This document shows, one piece after another, positions 14,112 through 33,691 of a DNA stretch of 33,910 nucleotides. Origin of the DNA: Cytophagales bacterium. Its GTDB lineage: Bacteria > Bacteroidota > Bacteroidia > Cytophagales > UBA9547. Within the stretch, counting starts at the first letter, position 1. Each line of letters opens with the position of its first letter. Where the stretch lies: the NCBI GenBank assembly GCA_025360395.1, contig JANYCH010000199.1, positions 1-33,910 on the forward strand, written 5' to 3'. The notes under the pieces are model-generated. The model worked only from the letters and a program-made list of their open reading frames with translations. It was not told the DNA's origin and ran no database searches. The translations under genes and the position numbers were made by a program.

Positions 14112-16583
14112 TTAATCGCTCTCCTTTTGACCTTTATGGAACCTGTCAAAAAGATCTAAACCTATATTCATTTTGCCATCCTTTTCACGGGCTCGAAGGC
14201 GGAGATTGCCGTGTTGAATATCTTTAATTTTAAAATATTCACTGTTATGGTCTTTTAAATTGGATAAAGGGATTTGAATACTCAAATCCGTTTTATGTTT
14301 AAAACTAAAAATACCTTCTAAATAAAGACTTAATACAGATGAGCTTACAACCATTTTTTCTATATAAAGTTCCTCGCCTTCTAAAACAAAAATGTTATTT
14401 ATTTCGTCGAACTGAATATGCATCATATCCCTATTTTTGAAAACCAAGTCTCCAACCTTTTTTAAAGGCAAGAAATTTTTCAATTTCCCCTGAGTTAACA
14501 GAATAGACATTCTACCCTTAATTGATCTTTGTATAGGCTCAAATGAACGGTTTGTTTGACAGTTAAAATTAACCTTAGAGTTAATTATCCCTTCCAGATT
14601 TTCGTTTGTAAGCGAACTTTGACCAAAATTGTTAAATCCATAGAATAGATTTGATGCATCAATATTCTTTAAATTAGCTTCCATTTTGACTTTACCAGAA
14701 TCATTATCCTGAAAAATATAAGCACCATTTAAGGTAATTATTCCTTTTGCAGGCAGATATAGTTTCCAATTATTCAATGATATAGACTCATTAGAAATAT
14801 CAACATTTCCACTTATATCATGAGCAACTAATTTCTTGTATTGAAATTTATGGAGGTTCACATCAAATTCCATCTCCATTTTACTTAAAATTTTATGCAA
14901 GTGACCCATGAATGGTTTAGTTACTTTTATATCATTTTCATCATATTTATGATCTCTTTTAACGAGTAAGTTGTTTAAATTGAAATACGGTGATGATATT
15001 CTCATTTTTGCTTTAATATTATTTTCAGGAAAAAGAAGATAAGGAAGCATATTTTTAAGATCAGCTTGAATTCTGACCTGGTTCTCATTCATTTTACAGG
15101 ACAATCCTTTAACATTCATATCTGAATTAAGAAAATTTAAATCTCCGTTTATATTTGAGAAGGCGAGATGCTTTTTCAAAATATCTATTTTACCATCGGT
15201 TATATTTAAACCAGCATTTATATACCCTTTCATCATGATCGGGTCTGGAATTGTCTTCAAAGAAATGGGACCCTTTTGTTTAAGCTTAAATGAAAAATTG
15301 CCTCCCGAAAATTTATAAACAGAAGTATCTAAATAGTGATGAAAAGCTTTTAACGGACCACTTAATACAGCATCAACATTTGTTTGAGGAACATTTAAGT
15401 TGTGAAGGTCTCCTATTACTTTAAAGTTTATTTCCTTATAATTAAAATCTGAGGTCAGAATTTTGAGGACAGAATTTTCATCACTAGAAAGTTGAAGAGT
15501 ATCGTAATGATTATTGAAGACACCATTTAACTTTACATTTTCCAGAAAATATTCTATTAGTCTTACTCTACTATTTTCAATTTGAAAATTCACCAGAGCA
15601 AATGGCTGAATACCAGGTTTGGTATCTAACACCAAATGGACTTGGGCACTAAGTCCATCATCAACATGAAATTTATTAAGTACTTTCTGTAAATGTGTAT
15701 TCAATAATGAAATTGCTTTGTCATAATCGGTATTGGTTGTATTGATATCCAGGTATATTAGAGGCAGTTTCTTATTTAACCTACATTTTCCTGAAACTTC
15801 GTAAATCTGTCCTTCGCTATTTATTGATGACTGCAACAAAGTCAACAAACTGTCTGACTTATTATAACTCAAATGCAGCTTAAGTTCCAATTCCTTGTTT
15901 GCAAGAAATGGTCCTTTTAAATTATTAAACAATAAGCCTTCTGAAAAAACATGACCATTAACATGACAAACAACTTGATTTTCCAATTTCTTAACTCTTA
16001 TTAAGACGTCATTACAAGCAAGTTGAATCCGTTTTTTTTTCTTATCATCCAAATAGACCAACGATACTTTTTTAAAGACTATTTTTTTAAGGTCAAAGTC
16101 CATTAAGGAGGACTTTACACTTTTGGTGGTATCAGACTTTAATGACTTTCTGGAGAAAACAGACAGATTTGAATAACCTAAAGAATCTTTAAAGATGTTG
16201 AAACTGGCATTTTGAACTATTATACTTTTTACATCAAGTTCCTTTCGTAATAATTTAAAAAGATGAATCTGCAAATAGACTTTTTCAGCCTTGATTATTT
16301 CATTATTATAAACCGAGTCTTTTATCGTAAGGCCAATTAAAGTGACTGAAACAGATGGAAATTCTCTAAAAATGGTAAAGCTTATATTATTTAAATGTGC
16401 ACTTCCTGTAATTCCATTATCAATTTCTCTATTGAAATACGCAAGAATATCCTTTTTATGTATGCTGGCGATAGAATATGCTATTATAAGGAGACTTATT
16501 AAAAATAAGAAAAACCAGAAAAAAACTTTAAAAATAAAAAATACAAATCTTTTCATCAGCGGAGCATTAAAAAATAAAGCCAT
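14112..16583 (-). CDS. AsmA-like (AsmA/TamB superfamily) membrane-anchored protein
   Basis: 823 aa with one N-terminal TM, then FREFPSVSVTLIGLTIKDS and repeated beta-strand blocks; typical Bacteroidetes AsmA family. Confidence 0.75.
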   Translation of the reverse strand: MALFFNAPLMKRFVFFIFKVFFWFFLFLISLLIIAYSIASIHKKDILAYFNREIDNGITGSAHLNNISFTIFREFPSVSVTLIGLTIKDSVYNNEIIKAEKVYLQIHLFKLLRKELDVKSIIVQNASFNIFKDSLGYSNLSVFSRKSLKSDTTKSVKSSLMDFDLKKIVFKKVSLVYLDDKKKKRIQLACNDVLIRVKKLENQVVCHVNGHVFSEGLLFNNLKGPFLANKELELKLHLSYNKSDSLLTLLQSSINSEGQIYEVSGKCRLNKKLPLIYLDINTTNTDYDKAISLLNTHLQKVLNKFHVDDGLSAQVHLVLDTKPGIQPFALVNFQIENSRVRLIEYFLENVKLNGVFNNHYDTLQLSSDENSVLKILTSDFNYKEINFKVIGDLHNLNVPQTNVDAVLSGPLKAFHHYLDTSVYKFSGGNFSFKLKQKGPISLKTIPDPIMMKGYINAGLNITDGKIDILKKHLAFSNINGDLNFLNSDMNVKGLSCKMNENQVRIQADLKNMLPYLLFPENNIKAKMRISSPYFNLNNLLVKRDHKYDENDIKVTKPFMGHLHKILSKMEMEFDVNLHKFQYKKLVAHDISGNVDISNESISLNNWKLYLPAKGIITLNGAYIFQDNDSGKVKMEANLKNIDASNLFYGFNNFGQSSLTNENLEGIINSKVNFNCQTNRSFEPIQRSIKGRMSILLTQGKLKNFLPLKKVGDLVFKNRDMMHIQFDEINNIFVLEGEELYIEKMVVSSSVLSLYLEGIFSFKHKTDLSIQIPLSNLKDHNSEYFKIKDIQHGNLRLRAREKDGKMNIGLDLFDRFHKGQKESD

Positions 16584-16731
16584 GAAATTAATGGTTACTA
16601 TTTAATCAGAAAATTTAAAAAGAAAATGAATAGAATGGATAGAAATAACAATAAAATTTGGCTGAAATATAAAGAATGTCAGAATTAAATATGGATTTAT
16701 TATAAAAATAATTATTATTTCAGAATTAAAT

Positions 16732-16761
16732 TTTGTATTTTAAAATAAATATTTACCTTTG
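16732..16761 (+). promoter_or_regulatory. Bacteroidetes-type promoter: TTTG (16732-16735) - N18 - TACCTTTG (16754-16761)
   Basis: Match to the -33 TTTG / -7 TAnnTTTG consensus with 18-nt spacing. Confidence 0.65.
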
Positions 16762-16764
16762 TTA

Positions 16765-16851
16765 ATGTTCAAGCCCGAACACATATCGACTTCTCTAAGG
16801 TTTAACCAAGACCTTCTCTGCACTTCAGATTTCTGTTGTTGTTGCCGCTAA
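16765..16851 (+). CDS. candidate poly-cysteine leader peptide MFKPEHISTSLRFNQDLLCTSDFCCCCR
   Basis: 28-codon ORF ATGTTCAAGCCC...TTCTGTTGTTGTTGCCGCTAA. It has 5 Cys codons, four of them tandem just before the stop, starts 4 nt after a -7 element, and lies upstream of a small ORF and tRNA-Cys. It was not in the supplied ORF track. Confidence 0.75.
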   Translation: MFKPEHISTSLRFNQDLLCTSDFCCCCR

Positions 16852-16865
16852 CTTTCCGTCGCAAC
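16841..16865 (+). promoter_or_regulatory. hairpin overlapping the Cys codons and stop of the leader peptide
   Basis: GTTGC(16841-16845) pairs with GCAAC(16861-16865), plus inner C-G and G-U pairs after a C/C mismatch. No downstream U-run. Confidence 0.4.
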
Positions 16866-16901
16866 GCCTTCTATCATTTCTTTAATATAAACTTCTTCGA
16901 C

Positions 16902-17171
16902 ATGAATAAGTCAGAAATCAAATTAATAAGTTTTAAAAAATTCTTTACTAAATACTTCAAGTTTCATTCAGACATTATTGTTTTTAACCCGGATGCAGAT
17001 TATTCATATGAATTTAAGGATCCTCGCGTGTCGTTCCTTGAATTGAATATCAACAATGGCAACCAAAGAAAAGATTGGCTGGAGTACAGTTATTATCCCT
17101 TCTTAGGCTCTAGCCTAAATTTAAAAATAAACGATGAAAATGCATTATTTGGTTTTATAGGCAATAATTAA
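16902..17171 (+). CDS. small hypothetical protein between the poly-Cys leader and tRNA-Cys
   Basis: ATG at 16902 (MNKSEIKLISFKKFFTKYFKFHSDIIVFNPDADYSYEFKDPRVSFLEL...); the ORF stays open upstream to 16836. No recognised family. Confidence 0.6.
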   Translation: MNKSEIKLISFKKFFTKYFKFHSDIIVFNPDADYSYEFKDPRVSFLELNINNGNQRKDWLEYSYYPFLGSSLNLKINDENALFGFIGNN

Positions 17172-17177
17172 AAATTT

Positions 17178-17248
17178 GGCTACGTGTCCGAGTGGTTAGG
17201 TACGGGTCTGCAAAACCTTTTACAGCGGTTCGAATCCGCTCGTAGCCT
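17178..17248 (+). tRNA. tRNA-Cys (anticodon GCA)
   Basis: Perfect 7-bp acceptor GGCTACG/CGTAGCC, perfect T-arm AGCGG-TTCGAAT-CCGCT, anticodon loop CTGCAAA, discriminator T73 (Cys identity), CCA not encoded. Confidence 0.93.
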
Positions 17249-17276
17249 CAAGTGAAAGATTTTCTTTTTTAACTAG

Positions 17277-18509
17277 TTAGTTAAAGCAGAATATAAATTC
17301 AGTTCCGATATTTTTTTGACTGTTTACTTTGATAGATACATTATACTTATCTAAAAGCTTTTTTACAATATAAAGGCCCATACCTGTCCCTTCTATATCA
17401 TGATTGTCCATACGTTCAAACAGGTTAAATAACTTTCCTTGTTCTTCATCTGTCATCCCTCGACCGTTGTCTGCAACTGATAGATATTTTAGTCCATCCT
17501 GAGTAGTAAAATTCAGTTTAAGATAGGGAGCCCGGTCAGGATGTTTGTATTTTATTGCGTTTGTAATGAGGTTATAAAGCAAACTTTTAAAAGCAACCCT
17601 ATTAAAAGTAAAATCTTCAACTTCAGAGAAGTTTTCGACAATTATTGAATTTGAATTATTTATCAGGGAAGTGATACTTGTTTCAATCTCTTCTAATACC
17701 GGTTTAACTTTGAAAGTCTCGAAAGAGGTACCTTCATTTTCTTTTCTTATTATATCAATTAATTCATTAATGGTGTTTTTAAGTTGTACAATAGCGCCTT
17801 CCTGCATTTTAATTATTTCAAACACTTCTGTTGAAATGGGGCTTTCCAACTCATCTTCTAATGCACTTATAAGTGCTTCCAGATTTGCGACCGGCAATTT
17901 CAGATCGTGAGAGGCTGTATAAACAAACTGATCGAGGTTATTATTAAGACTAATAAGTTTTTGATTATAAATCTGCAATTCAGCTTCAATAGTTTTCCTT
18001 TTCTCTATTTCAGCATTGAGGTCTGCATTCTTTATGTTCAGATCAGCGGTTCTTTGCTGAACAATTAATTCAAGATTATTATATGCTTCTTCAAGGTTCC
18101 TTTGCTGAATGTAAATGTCAATAAAAGAATAAACTTTAGATCGGGTAATTACCGGATCTAAAGGCTTAAACAGATAATCAACAGCTCCTTTGCTGTAACC
18201 TTCGGAAACATATTTGGATTCGTGGTTCAGGGCTGTGACAAATATGATGGGTATATTTTGAGAAGTTTTAGATTTCTTCAAAAAAGAAGCAACCTCATAA
18301 CCATCCATTTCGGGCATTTGTACGTCTAAAAGTACCAAAGCAATATTGCCTTTGTAAGCAATTTTCAAAGCTTCGTTTCCCGAGGTTGCGCGAAGAAAAT
18401 TAACAGACCTTTCTTCTAAATTTAGCAAATTCTCAAGAGCATAAATATTTTCTTCCTTATCATCTACTATGAGGACGTTGACAGAAATATCCTTTGGGTT
18501 TGAATTCAT
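17277..18509 (-). CDS. response regulator-histidine kinase hybrid (N-terminal REC, coiled coil, HisKA, HATPase)
   Basis: VLIVDDKEENIYALENLL, LVLLDVQMPEMDGYEVA, FVYTASHDLKLPVANLEAL, VADNGRGMTDEE, GTGMGLYIVKKLL. Confidence 0.93.
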   Translation of the reverse strand: MNSNPKDISVNVLIVDDKEENIYALENLLNLEERSVNFLRATSGNEALKIAYKGNIALVLLDVQMPEMDGYEVASFLKKSKTSQNIPIIFVTALNHESKYVSEGYSKGAVDYLFKPLDPVITRSKVYSFIDIYIQQRNLEEAYNNLELIVQQRTADLNIKNADLNAEIEKRKTIEAELQIYNQKLISLNNNLDQFVYTASHDLKLPVANLEALISALEDELESPISTEVFEIIKMQEGAIVQLKNTINELIDIIRKENEGTSFETFKVKPVLEEIETSITSLINNSNSIIVENFSEVEDFTFNRVAFKSLLYNLITNAIKYKHPDRAPYLKLNFTTQDGLKYLSVADNGRGMTDEEQGKLFNLFERMDNHDIEGTGMGLYIVKKLLDKYNVSIKVNSQKNIGTEFIFCFN

Positions 18510-23933: not shown

Positions 23934-24941
23934 ATGAAAATCAGGAGAATTATAGAAAAACATGATAAGGCAGACATTGAGCATGAGGAATTAGGCATAC
24001 CGCCTTTAGAAGAATCAGTTCACGAAGAACCATGGAGCCTCCTCAAAAAATGCTTAGTGGCAGCATTCATTGCAATAGGTGTGGTAACTGTAGTTTATTT
24101 TCTGCTTCAATTCCTTTTTCCCGTTTTTACTGCTGAAAAAGTTGTTCAATTTATTGATGTATTTACCCAGAAAAAATTCTGGACATATGTATTTGTTGGC
24201 CTTGGTGCACAAATGATTGATGGGGCTTTAGGAATGGCATATGGAGTTAGTTCTACAACCTTTTTATTGAGTGCAGGTGTAGGGCCTTCCGCAGCAAGTG
24301 CAAGTGTGCACATTGCCGAAATGTTTACATCAGGTATATCCGGCATTTCTCACCTCAAATTTGGGAATGTTAACAAAAAGCTATTTAAAAGTCTTTTATT
24401 TACCGGTGTACTTGGAGGAATGCTAGGTGCATTTCTATCAACACAAATAGATGGTAATATTCTAAAGCCTTATATATCAGGATATTTGCTTATCATGGGC
24501 ATTGTAATTATAAGGAAGGCTGTTAGAAAGAATGTTAAAAAGAAAAAGACAACCAATATACGCTGGCTGGCTTTGTTTGGCGGGTTTGTTGATGCAGTCG
24601 GTGGTGGAGGTTGGGGACCTGTAGTAACTACTACACTTGTTAGCTCAGGAAGAGACCCTCGTTATACGATAGGTTCGGTTAACCTAGCCGAATTCTTTGT
24701 CGCAGTAGGTACGGCTTTGTCATTTGCCCTTTTCATGGGCCTTCAGGAATGGCAAACAATAGGTGAACTTGGTGTTATTATTTTAGGCTTAATAGTGGGT
24801 GGAATGTTTGCAGCGCCATTTGCTGCTATAATATTAAGACATGTAAAGGCAAAAAAACTGATGATTTTTGTTGGTATACTTATTATTGTTTTGAGCCTTC
24901 GGACACTGCTGAAAGCATTATTTGGAATACAATTATTCTAA
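23934..24941 (+). CDS. sulfite exporter TauE/SafE family (DUF81) permease
   Basis: GLGAQMIDGALGMAYGVSSTTFLLSAGVGPSAASASVHIAEMFTSGISGISHLKFGNV, ALFGGFVDAVGGGGWGPVVTTTL, multiple TMs. Confidence 0.9.
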   Translation: MKIRRIIEKHDKADIEHEELGIPPLEESVHEEPWSLLKKCLVAAFIAIGVVTVVYFLLQFLFPVFTAEKVVQFIDVFTQKKFWTYVFVGLGAQMIDGALGMAYGVSSTTFLLSAGVGPSAASASVHIAEMFTSGISGISHLKFGNVNKKLFKSLLFTGVLGGMLGAFLSTQIDGNILKPYISGYLLIMGIVIIRKAVRKNVKKKKTTNIRWLALFGGFVDAVGGGGWGPVVTTTLVSSGRDPRYTIGSVNLAEFFVAVGTALSFALFMGLQEWQTIGELGVIILGLIVGGMFAAPFAAIILRHVKAKKLMIFVGILIIVLSLRTLLKALFGIQLF

Positions 24942-32380: not shown

Positions 32381-33691
32381 ATGGCTTTATTATTCACTTC
32401 AGAATCAGTTTCGGAAGGACATCCGGATAAGGTTGCTGACCAGATTTCAGATGCTATCCTTGATGCCATGCTAGCACAGGACCCTTCATCACGTGTTGCC
32501 TGCGAAACCCTTGTTACAACAGGATTAGCAGTAGTAGCAGGAGAAATTACAACTAAAGCATATGTTGATGTTCAGGAAGTAATCAGAAAAACAATTGCGA
32601 ATATTGGATACACCAAAGCGGAATATATGTTTGAAGCCCGCTCTTGCGGAATCATCAACGCACTGCATTCCCAATCTCCAGACATTGCGCAAGGAGTAAA
32701 TGAGGGAGAAGGTTTAGACAAAGACCAAGGGGCAGGAGATCAGGGAATGATGTTTGGCTACGCCAGCAAAGAAACACCAGAATATATGCCAATGGCACTT
32801 GCTTTTTCTCACCGTATAGTAAAATACATGGCTGAAATAAGAAAAGCTGGTAAAATGATGACCTACCTGAGACCAGATACTAAGTCACAAGTAACAATTG
32901 AATATGACAGTAAAGGAAAAGCTTTAAGAGTAGATACTATTGTTGTTTCAACACAGCATGATGATTTCGTTAAACCTGCTGACAGCAGCAAACAAGCAAA
33001 AGAAAAAGCTGATTCTGCTATGTTGGAAGTAATCAAAAAAGATATTCTGGAACAAATAATTCCTGCATGTATCCCAAAAGAATTACTTGATGCTAAAACC
33101 AAATATTATGTAAACCCAACAGGGGTTTTTGTAATAGGTGGGCCTCACGGTGACTCTGGCTTAACAGGCCGTAAAATTATTGTGGACACTTATGGAGGAA
33201 AAGGAGCACATGGTGGAGGTGCATTTTCAGGGAAAGACCCTTCTAAAGTTGACAGAAGTGCAGCATATGCTGCAAGGCACATCGCTAAAAACCTGGTCGC
33301 TGCAGGTGTGGCAGATGAAGTATTGGTACAAGTTGCTTACGCAATCGGAATTGCGAAACCAGTTTCAGTTAATGTGAACACTTACGGTACTAACAAAACA
33401 GGTTTGAATGATGAGCAAATTGCGACTGAAGTGGCCCAGATATTCGACCTTAGGCCTAAAGCTATTATTGACAGGTTTGGATTGAAAAACCCTATTTATT
33501 CTGAAACGGCGAAATATGGCCACATGGGGCGGGAGCCTTATGAAAAAGAAGTTGATGTAAACTATGTCACCTTGGAAGAAAAAGGCAACCAGGTAATTGA
33601 AGTACGTACCGCATCTAAAAAGAAAGTCCAGTTCTTTGGTTGGGAAAAACTTGACTATGTTGATAAACTGAAGAAAGCTTTTTCTTTGTAA
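32381..33691 (+). CDS. metK: S-adenosylmethionine synthetase
   Basis: [92 protein letters not shown]. Confidence 0.97.

Follow-up and report, generated by a model that had tools for sequence, protein, structure and literature searches.

To our knowledge, the targets of described leader-peptide attenuators are either biosynthetic enzymes or aminoacyl-tRNA synthetases. The tnaC leader of E. coli is a case of Rho-dependent attenuation, in which the ribosome stalls through the nascent peptide and bound tryptophan. Cys leader peptides precede the cys operons of Mycobacterium and Propionibacterium and the cbs gene of B. longum (PMC1262725, 2005), and Rho-dependent termination was suggested for the mycobacterial ones (PMC1262725). 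Polycysteine leaderless short ORFs were reported from mycobacteria (Canestrari et al. 2020, doi 10.1111/mmi.14498, as cited in PMC9094748 and PMC13236596). In Rhodobacterales, the uORFC-8-2 motif precedes cysS (PMC8632094).

Here we describe a short ORF with tandem Cys codons in a 33,910-nt stretch of DNA from a Cytophagales bacterium (hereafter the window). It is followed by a MetY-derived ORF and by tRNA-Cys, and from the sequence comparisons below we consider it likely that the Cys codons of this leader regulate the whole unit. The proposed logic is that of tnaC, where a ribosome halted at the leader's end blocks Rho from reaching the neighbouring RNA, but the tnaC stall does not come from a shortage of charged tRNA. 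As they are presented in the two citing articles, the mycobacterial polycysteine ORFs share with this locus a Cys run near the stop, a predicted leaderless start and a position ahead of sulfur-related genes. They belong to another phylum, the present unit ends in tRNA-Cys, and we see no sign of common descent. The other actinobacterial leaders likewise have Cys runs near the stop without a conserved terminator, but they front biosynthetic operons and not a tRNA gene. Like our ORF, uORFC-8-2 has tandem Cys codons in a leader ORF ahead of a gene that makes Cys-tRNA. However, it has two Cys codons, is structured, carries an intrinsic terminator and controls a synthetase instead of a tRNA gene.

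A search by title and abstract of a literature that lacks most subscription journals gave no relevant case of a tRNA gene under leader-peptide control. Control of a tRNA gene through a leader enriched in the codons that the tRNA itself reads would be a novel element, for which this literature result is weak evidence. If true, such a leader, read by the product of the tRNA gene behind it, would make a direct supply-and-demand loop for that tRNA.

The leader ORF

The leader ORF (16765–16851, plus strand) has 28 codons and encodes MFKPEHISTSLRFNQDLLCTSDFCCCCR, as given by exact translation. The original prediction of an ATG ORF of this length with five Cys codons, four of them in tandem, was exact. 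The tandem codons (TGT TGT TGT TGC, 16834–16845, plus strand) are the proposed stall site. The run had been placed right before the stop; it does lie at the end of the ORF, but a single Arg codon (CGC) sits between it and TAA. The ORF is intergenic, with a divergent 823-aa ORF upstream (14112–16583, minus strand) and an 89-aa ORF downstream. To this picture our analysis adds a predicted leaderless promoter, the downstream 89-aa ORF and tRNA-Cys, and a connection to metY.

To estimate chance expectation, 200 dinucleotide-preserving shuffles of the window were searched for ATG-ORFs of 8–60 aa whose final six residues include CCCC. The mean was 0.005 per shuffled 34-kb window, against one observed, in agreement with the earlier claim that a terminal CCCC in an intergenic short ORF is unlikely by chance. 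The pattern CCCC-R-stop occurs once in the whole 3.1-Mb genome, and the control pattern 0 times. At the scale of that genome, however, about 0.5 ATG-ORFs with a late CCCC are expected by composition alone. Composition statistics are therefore insufficient, and conservation and context have to decide.

Homologous leaders within the genus

A search of 392 genomes of the order recovered three copies of this leader, each with 28 codons and without indels, and all of them belong to the source genus. A 23-base start motif matched three times in the same genomes, at exactly these copies. Both homologues come from one same-genus MAG, G002. On contig C359 the leader reads MFNPEHISTPLRLLQSLIPASDSCCCCC and is followed by an 89-aa ORF (67% identical) and then by tRNA-Cys. 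On contig C403 it reads MFNPELISQFTRNGNLFFQMFNRCCCCC and is followed by a 403-aa ORF, tRNA-Cys and a family 2A encapsulin gene. Thus tRNA-Cys lies downstream of the leader in all three copies.

The Cys run comprises four residues (CCCC) in the window copy and five (CCCCC) in each homologue; in the C403 copy, some codons of the run differ synonymously. Indels are present in the flanks of the three leaders and absent from the leaders themselves. The original prediction had proposed a Cys-codon leader in Bacteroidetes, to be given up if relatives did not conserve the start, frame or Cys run. Both homologues conserve all of these, and the length as well, which supports the identification as a leader. 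As in known attenuators, tandem regulatory codons stand near the end of a short ORF, and within the genus the start, frame and regulatory codons are conserved in three copies.

This sample of three copies comes from two incomplete MAGs. C403 is a 3.25-kb contig from a MAG with 6% estimated contamination, and its tetranucleotide profile, at 0.94–0.95 with the other two contigs, does not settle its origin. In a third member of the genus, G001, the contig end cuts the tRNA-Cys, and this genome contributes no information.

Outside the genus, none of the 28 loci checked had a comparable poly-Cys leader ahead of tRNA-Cys. Apart from the same-genus copy, the matches of a whole-genome protein search were unconvincing; one inside a 466-aa ORF (L004), for example, was a chance match. 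A broad TTTG-ATG-poly-Cys pattern was too noisy for use, and a poly-Cys frame in G007 (L149), which runs on the opposite strand to the poly-Gln terminus of a DnaK-like ORF, was discarded.

Predicted promoter and transcript start

In Flavobacterium, the Bacteroidota −7 box TAnnTTTG lies at positions −12 to −5, and leaderless mRNAs are a minority of 5.5% (PMC9723704). The window leader is preceded by TACCTTTG, a −7 box (16754–16761, plus strand) that ends 3 nt before the ATG. A TTTG at 16732–16735 (plus strand), whose TTG is identical across the alignment of the three copies, is a possible −33 element of a sigma-A promoter. With the strict Flavobacterium spacing, +1 would fall no more than 1 nt from the first base of the leader ATG, and a leaderless mRNA is therefore predicted.

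The −7 box alone proves nothing, because the window holds 46 TAnnTTTG boxes, which is not above the shuffled number. The argument for a leaderless start comes instead from the position of the box, 3–4 nt upstream of the leader ATG in all three copies, and from its isolation. TACCTTTG is the only plus-strand TAnnTTTG within 16600–17330, and no second consensus promoter of this form was found on that strand between the leader and tRNA-Cys. By these comparisons, the leader mRNA is probably leaderless.

Downstream genes

The unit runs in the order TACCTTTG, 3 nt, leader ORF, 50 nt, 89-aa ORF, 6 nt, tRNA-Cys. The tRNA-Cys gene (anticodon GCA; 17178–17249, plus strand) was identified by ARAGORN and by Rfam (RF00005, 53.5 bits). 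It is the sole RNA gene that these programs found in the window and the only tRNA-Cys match found in the source MAG. In the two copies with an 89-aa ORF, tRNA-Cys starts 6–7 nt past that ORF, and in the third it starts 18 nt past the MetY-like ORF. Elsewhere in the window, a putative TauE/SafE-like transporter and a putative metK (SAM synthetase) were named by eye at 23934–24941 and 32381–33691.

The 89-aa ORF (16902–17171, plus strand) has no match among Pfam and NCBIfam families. The 403-aa protein of C403 is assigned by family models to Cys_Met_Meta_PP and is OAH/OAS sulfhydrylase-like. Over its first 50 residues, the 89-aa protein is 42% identical to it, and a second, weaker match is possible near the C-terminus of the 403-aa protein. 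Because of these matches, the 89-aa protein is probably an internally deleted remnant of a MetY-like gene. A supposed homologue of the 89-aa protein in G269 was a chance match.

In the 403-aa protein, SLEDFLPPST replaces the SATKWIGGHG of canonical MetY, and the PLP-binding Lys is missing. With its catalytic Lys motif gone, this MetY-like protein is probably a pseudoenzyme. No MetY above the family cut-off was found in the genomes of the source genus.

Directly downstream of tRNA-Cys and the gene of the probable MetY-like pseudoenzyme on C403 lies a gene for a family 2A encapsulin shell (L081, 3–869, minus strand), an encapsulin of the sulfur-starvation type. SrpI is induced by sulfur starvation (PMC8049743). 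No cysteine desulfurase was seen on this short contig. The downstream genes are related to sulfur or cysteine, with tRNA-Cys in all copies and the MetY-like and encapsulin genes in one.

These genes also allow a different reading, in which the MetY-derived gene is, or used to be, the sole target of the leader, and tRNA-Cys is a 3′ passenger or has a non-consensus promoter of its own. Poly-Cys leaders elsewhere in Bacteroidota do front metY and not tRNA genes, the 28 tRNA-Cys loci checked elsewhere have no such leaders, and the 403-aa MetY-like gene persists in one copy. However, the MetY-like protein has lost its catalytic Lys motif and the gene has shrunk to 89 aa in two of the three copies, yet leader and tRNA-Cys stay linked in all three. 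The lack of a consensus promoter between leader and tRNA-Cys also argues against it. We regard this reading as rather unlikely, and prefer regulation of the whole unit, which is predicted to be co-transcribed.

Termination and RNA structure

No terminator-like site was found within 16600–17330. In tests of folding, terminators and complementarity, neither the T-run hairpin and antiterminator of a classical intrinsic-terminator attenuator nor a conserved alternative attenuator structure was found. The predicted folds of the leaders are little better than those of shuffles (z −1.3 to −1.7).

The gap between leader and 89-aa ORF (16852–16901, plus strand) is C-rich and G-poor (15 C, 4 G), and by base composition it is a candidate Rho-loading stretch. 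The C/G ratios of the gap in the three copies are 3.75, 6.0 and 5.5. C exceeds G in the gaps of 19 of 20 leaders. For comparison, 25 further gene starts in the window, a small control, have a C/G of 1.07. This composition fits Rho-dependent attenuation and, given that small control, is suggestive of it.

Alternatively, the Cys-codon RNA may pair with the gap before the next start, and a stalled ribosome would then free that start without any transcription termination. Translational attenuation has been ascribed to mycobacterial cysteine genes (PMC13236596). For the window and C403 copies, the predicted folds do show the Cys tract paired with the gap. The pairing is strong in C403 (−13.4 kcal/mol, p 0.004) but weak in the window copy (p 0.16), and in most other leaders it is no stronger than with shuffled gaps, so that the signal overall is marginal (combined Z −1.8). 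Moreover, attenuation of translation would not by itself act on an untranslated tRNA. We judge it unlikely as the explanation of this unit.

Drift of the peptide

A comparison of synonymous and non-synonymous changes had been suggested with the original prediction. Between the two closest leader copies it gave 10 non-synonymous against 4 synonymous codon changes, mostly mid-peptide, which is a leader-like pattern. Start, frame, length and Cys run are kept while the middle drifts, and this argues for a leader rather than a functional peptide. A small Cys-rich peptide with a function of its own, such as metal binding, would account for the conserved N-terminus, MF[NK]PE[HL]IS, common to the leaders. 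It would not account for a middle that drifts freely with mostly non-synonymous changes, for the site before tRNA-Cys and MetY-like genes, or for the parallel with metY leaders, and we consider it highly improbable. Least credible of all is an ORF arisen by chance in a 5′ untranslated region: although the ORF is short and its peptide mostly unconserved, the shuffled expectation given above and the frame, length, start and Cys run kept in three copies lead us, on these comparisons, to reject a chance origin and to accept the ORF as real.

Proposed mechanism

In the mechanism that we propose, transcription would start on the leader AUG or no more than about 1 nt from it, and ribosomes would load directly at the 5′ end. 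With abundant charged Cys-tRNA, a ribosome would clear the Cys run and depart, and most transcripts would be lost in the C-rich, G-poor gap, probably via Rho. Under a shortage of charged Cys-tRNA, it would pause on the Cys run next to the stop and shield the RNA, as at E. coli tnaC. RNA polymerase could then proceed into the downstream ORF and tRNA-Cys. We infer the direction of this response, with more expression when Cys-tRNA is scarce, by analogy with known kinds of attenuator. The Rho step is put forward tentatively.

If cysteine itself is scarce, extra tRNA-Cys would not raise charging. The loop would therefore be most sensible as a sensor of decoding capacity. At its fullest, the proposal is that a leaderless leader attenuates the tRNA gene that decodes its own codons, a direct feedback in which success in reading Cys codons would set tRNA-Cys production, with coupling to an encapsulin of the sulfur-starvation type in one relative. 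For this full form we see the balance as even. The arrangement found here, a short ORF that carries its Cys run close to the stop and precedes an operon, is also that of the leaderless polycysteine ORFs.

Cys leaders behind SAM-I riboswitches at metY

Upstream of metY in other Cytophagales we found unrelated leader ORFs with Cys runs at their ends. We surveyed the named metY loci (L183–L252) together with loci L089–L102 and L160–L181. A strict poly-Cys leader was found in 18 of 80 named metY loci, all from Bacteroidota, compared with 0 in the reverse-strand control. The organisms with metY leaders include Pontibacter, Mucilaginibacter, Pedobacter, Hymenobacter and Bernardetia, and the Bernardetia leader is nearly identical to that of G085, which points to Cytophagales as the order of the window. 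A CCCCC-stop pattern was more frequent than its control; because it does not separate reading frames, only frame-checked loci were used.

A SAM-I riboswitch was present in 30 of 40 named metY loci scanned with Rfam. In 24 of these 30, an ORF starts at most 45 nt past the aptamer (mostly 7–12 nt), and 17 of the 24 ORFs have at least two Cys in the last ten residues. Cys makes up 34% of the tails of these leaders and 2.5% of their bodies. Met, whose enrichment was noticed post hoc, makes up 10.8% and 2.0%, respectively, and three Bacteroidales have Met-rich tails instead of Cys-rich ones (e.g. MPMMPMSMR).

Ten poly-Cys leader loci lie directly behind a SAM-I riboswitch above the gathering score. 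Of the SAM-I loci of the order, 30 with high scores were inspected: a poly-Cys leader starts a few nt past the aptamer in seven, and in six of these it precedes metY. Where the aptamer directly precedes a metH- or metB-like ORF, as named by eye, no poly-Cys leader was seen. Poly-Cys leaders are thus recurrent in Bacteroidota, at metY behind SAM-I.

With the window leader these loci share the Cys run near the stop, a MetY-family gene downstream and no obvious terminator. However, their ORFs follow an aptamer instead of standing at the transcript start, and the peptides are unrelated. The window leader, in contrast, has no riboswitch: the RF00162 aptamer is absent directly ahead of it, and an Rfam scan gave no riboswitch anywhere in the window.

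The tandem of SAM-I and a Cys/Met leader at metY possibly places the synthesis of sulfur amino acids under two signals. Our search of the same limited literature found no published account of a SAM-I riboswitch combined with a Cys-codon leader peptide. Together with the window leader, these loci would extend Cys-codon leaders to Bacteroidota, with a recurrent composite control suggested at metY.

The source genome itself has a second poly-Cys leader. On contig C223 (L151, 1334–1518), a SAM-I riboswitch (59.9 bits) is followed by MEEFSVPSAIPFNRYKQLAYCCCCC and then by a secreted-protein-like ORF without a Pfam match. In G289 (L141, 1271–1982), SAM-I and a poly-Cys leader precede a ferredoxin-like ORF and not metY.
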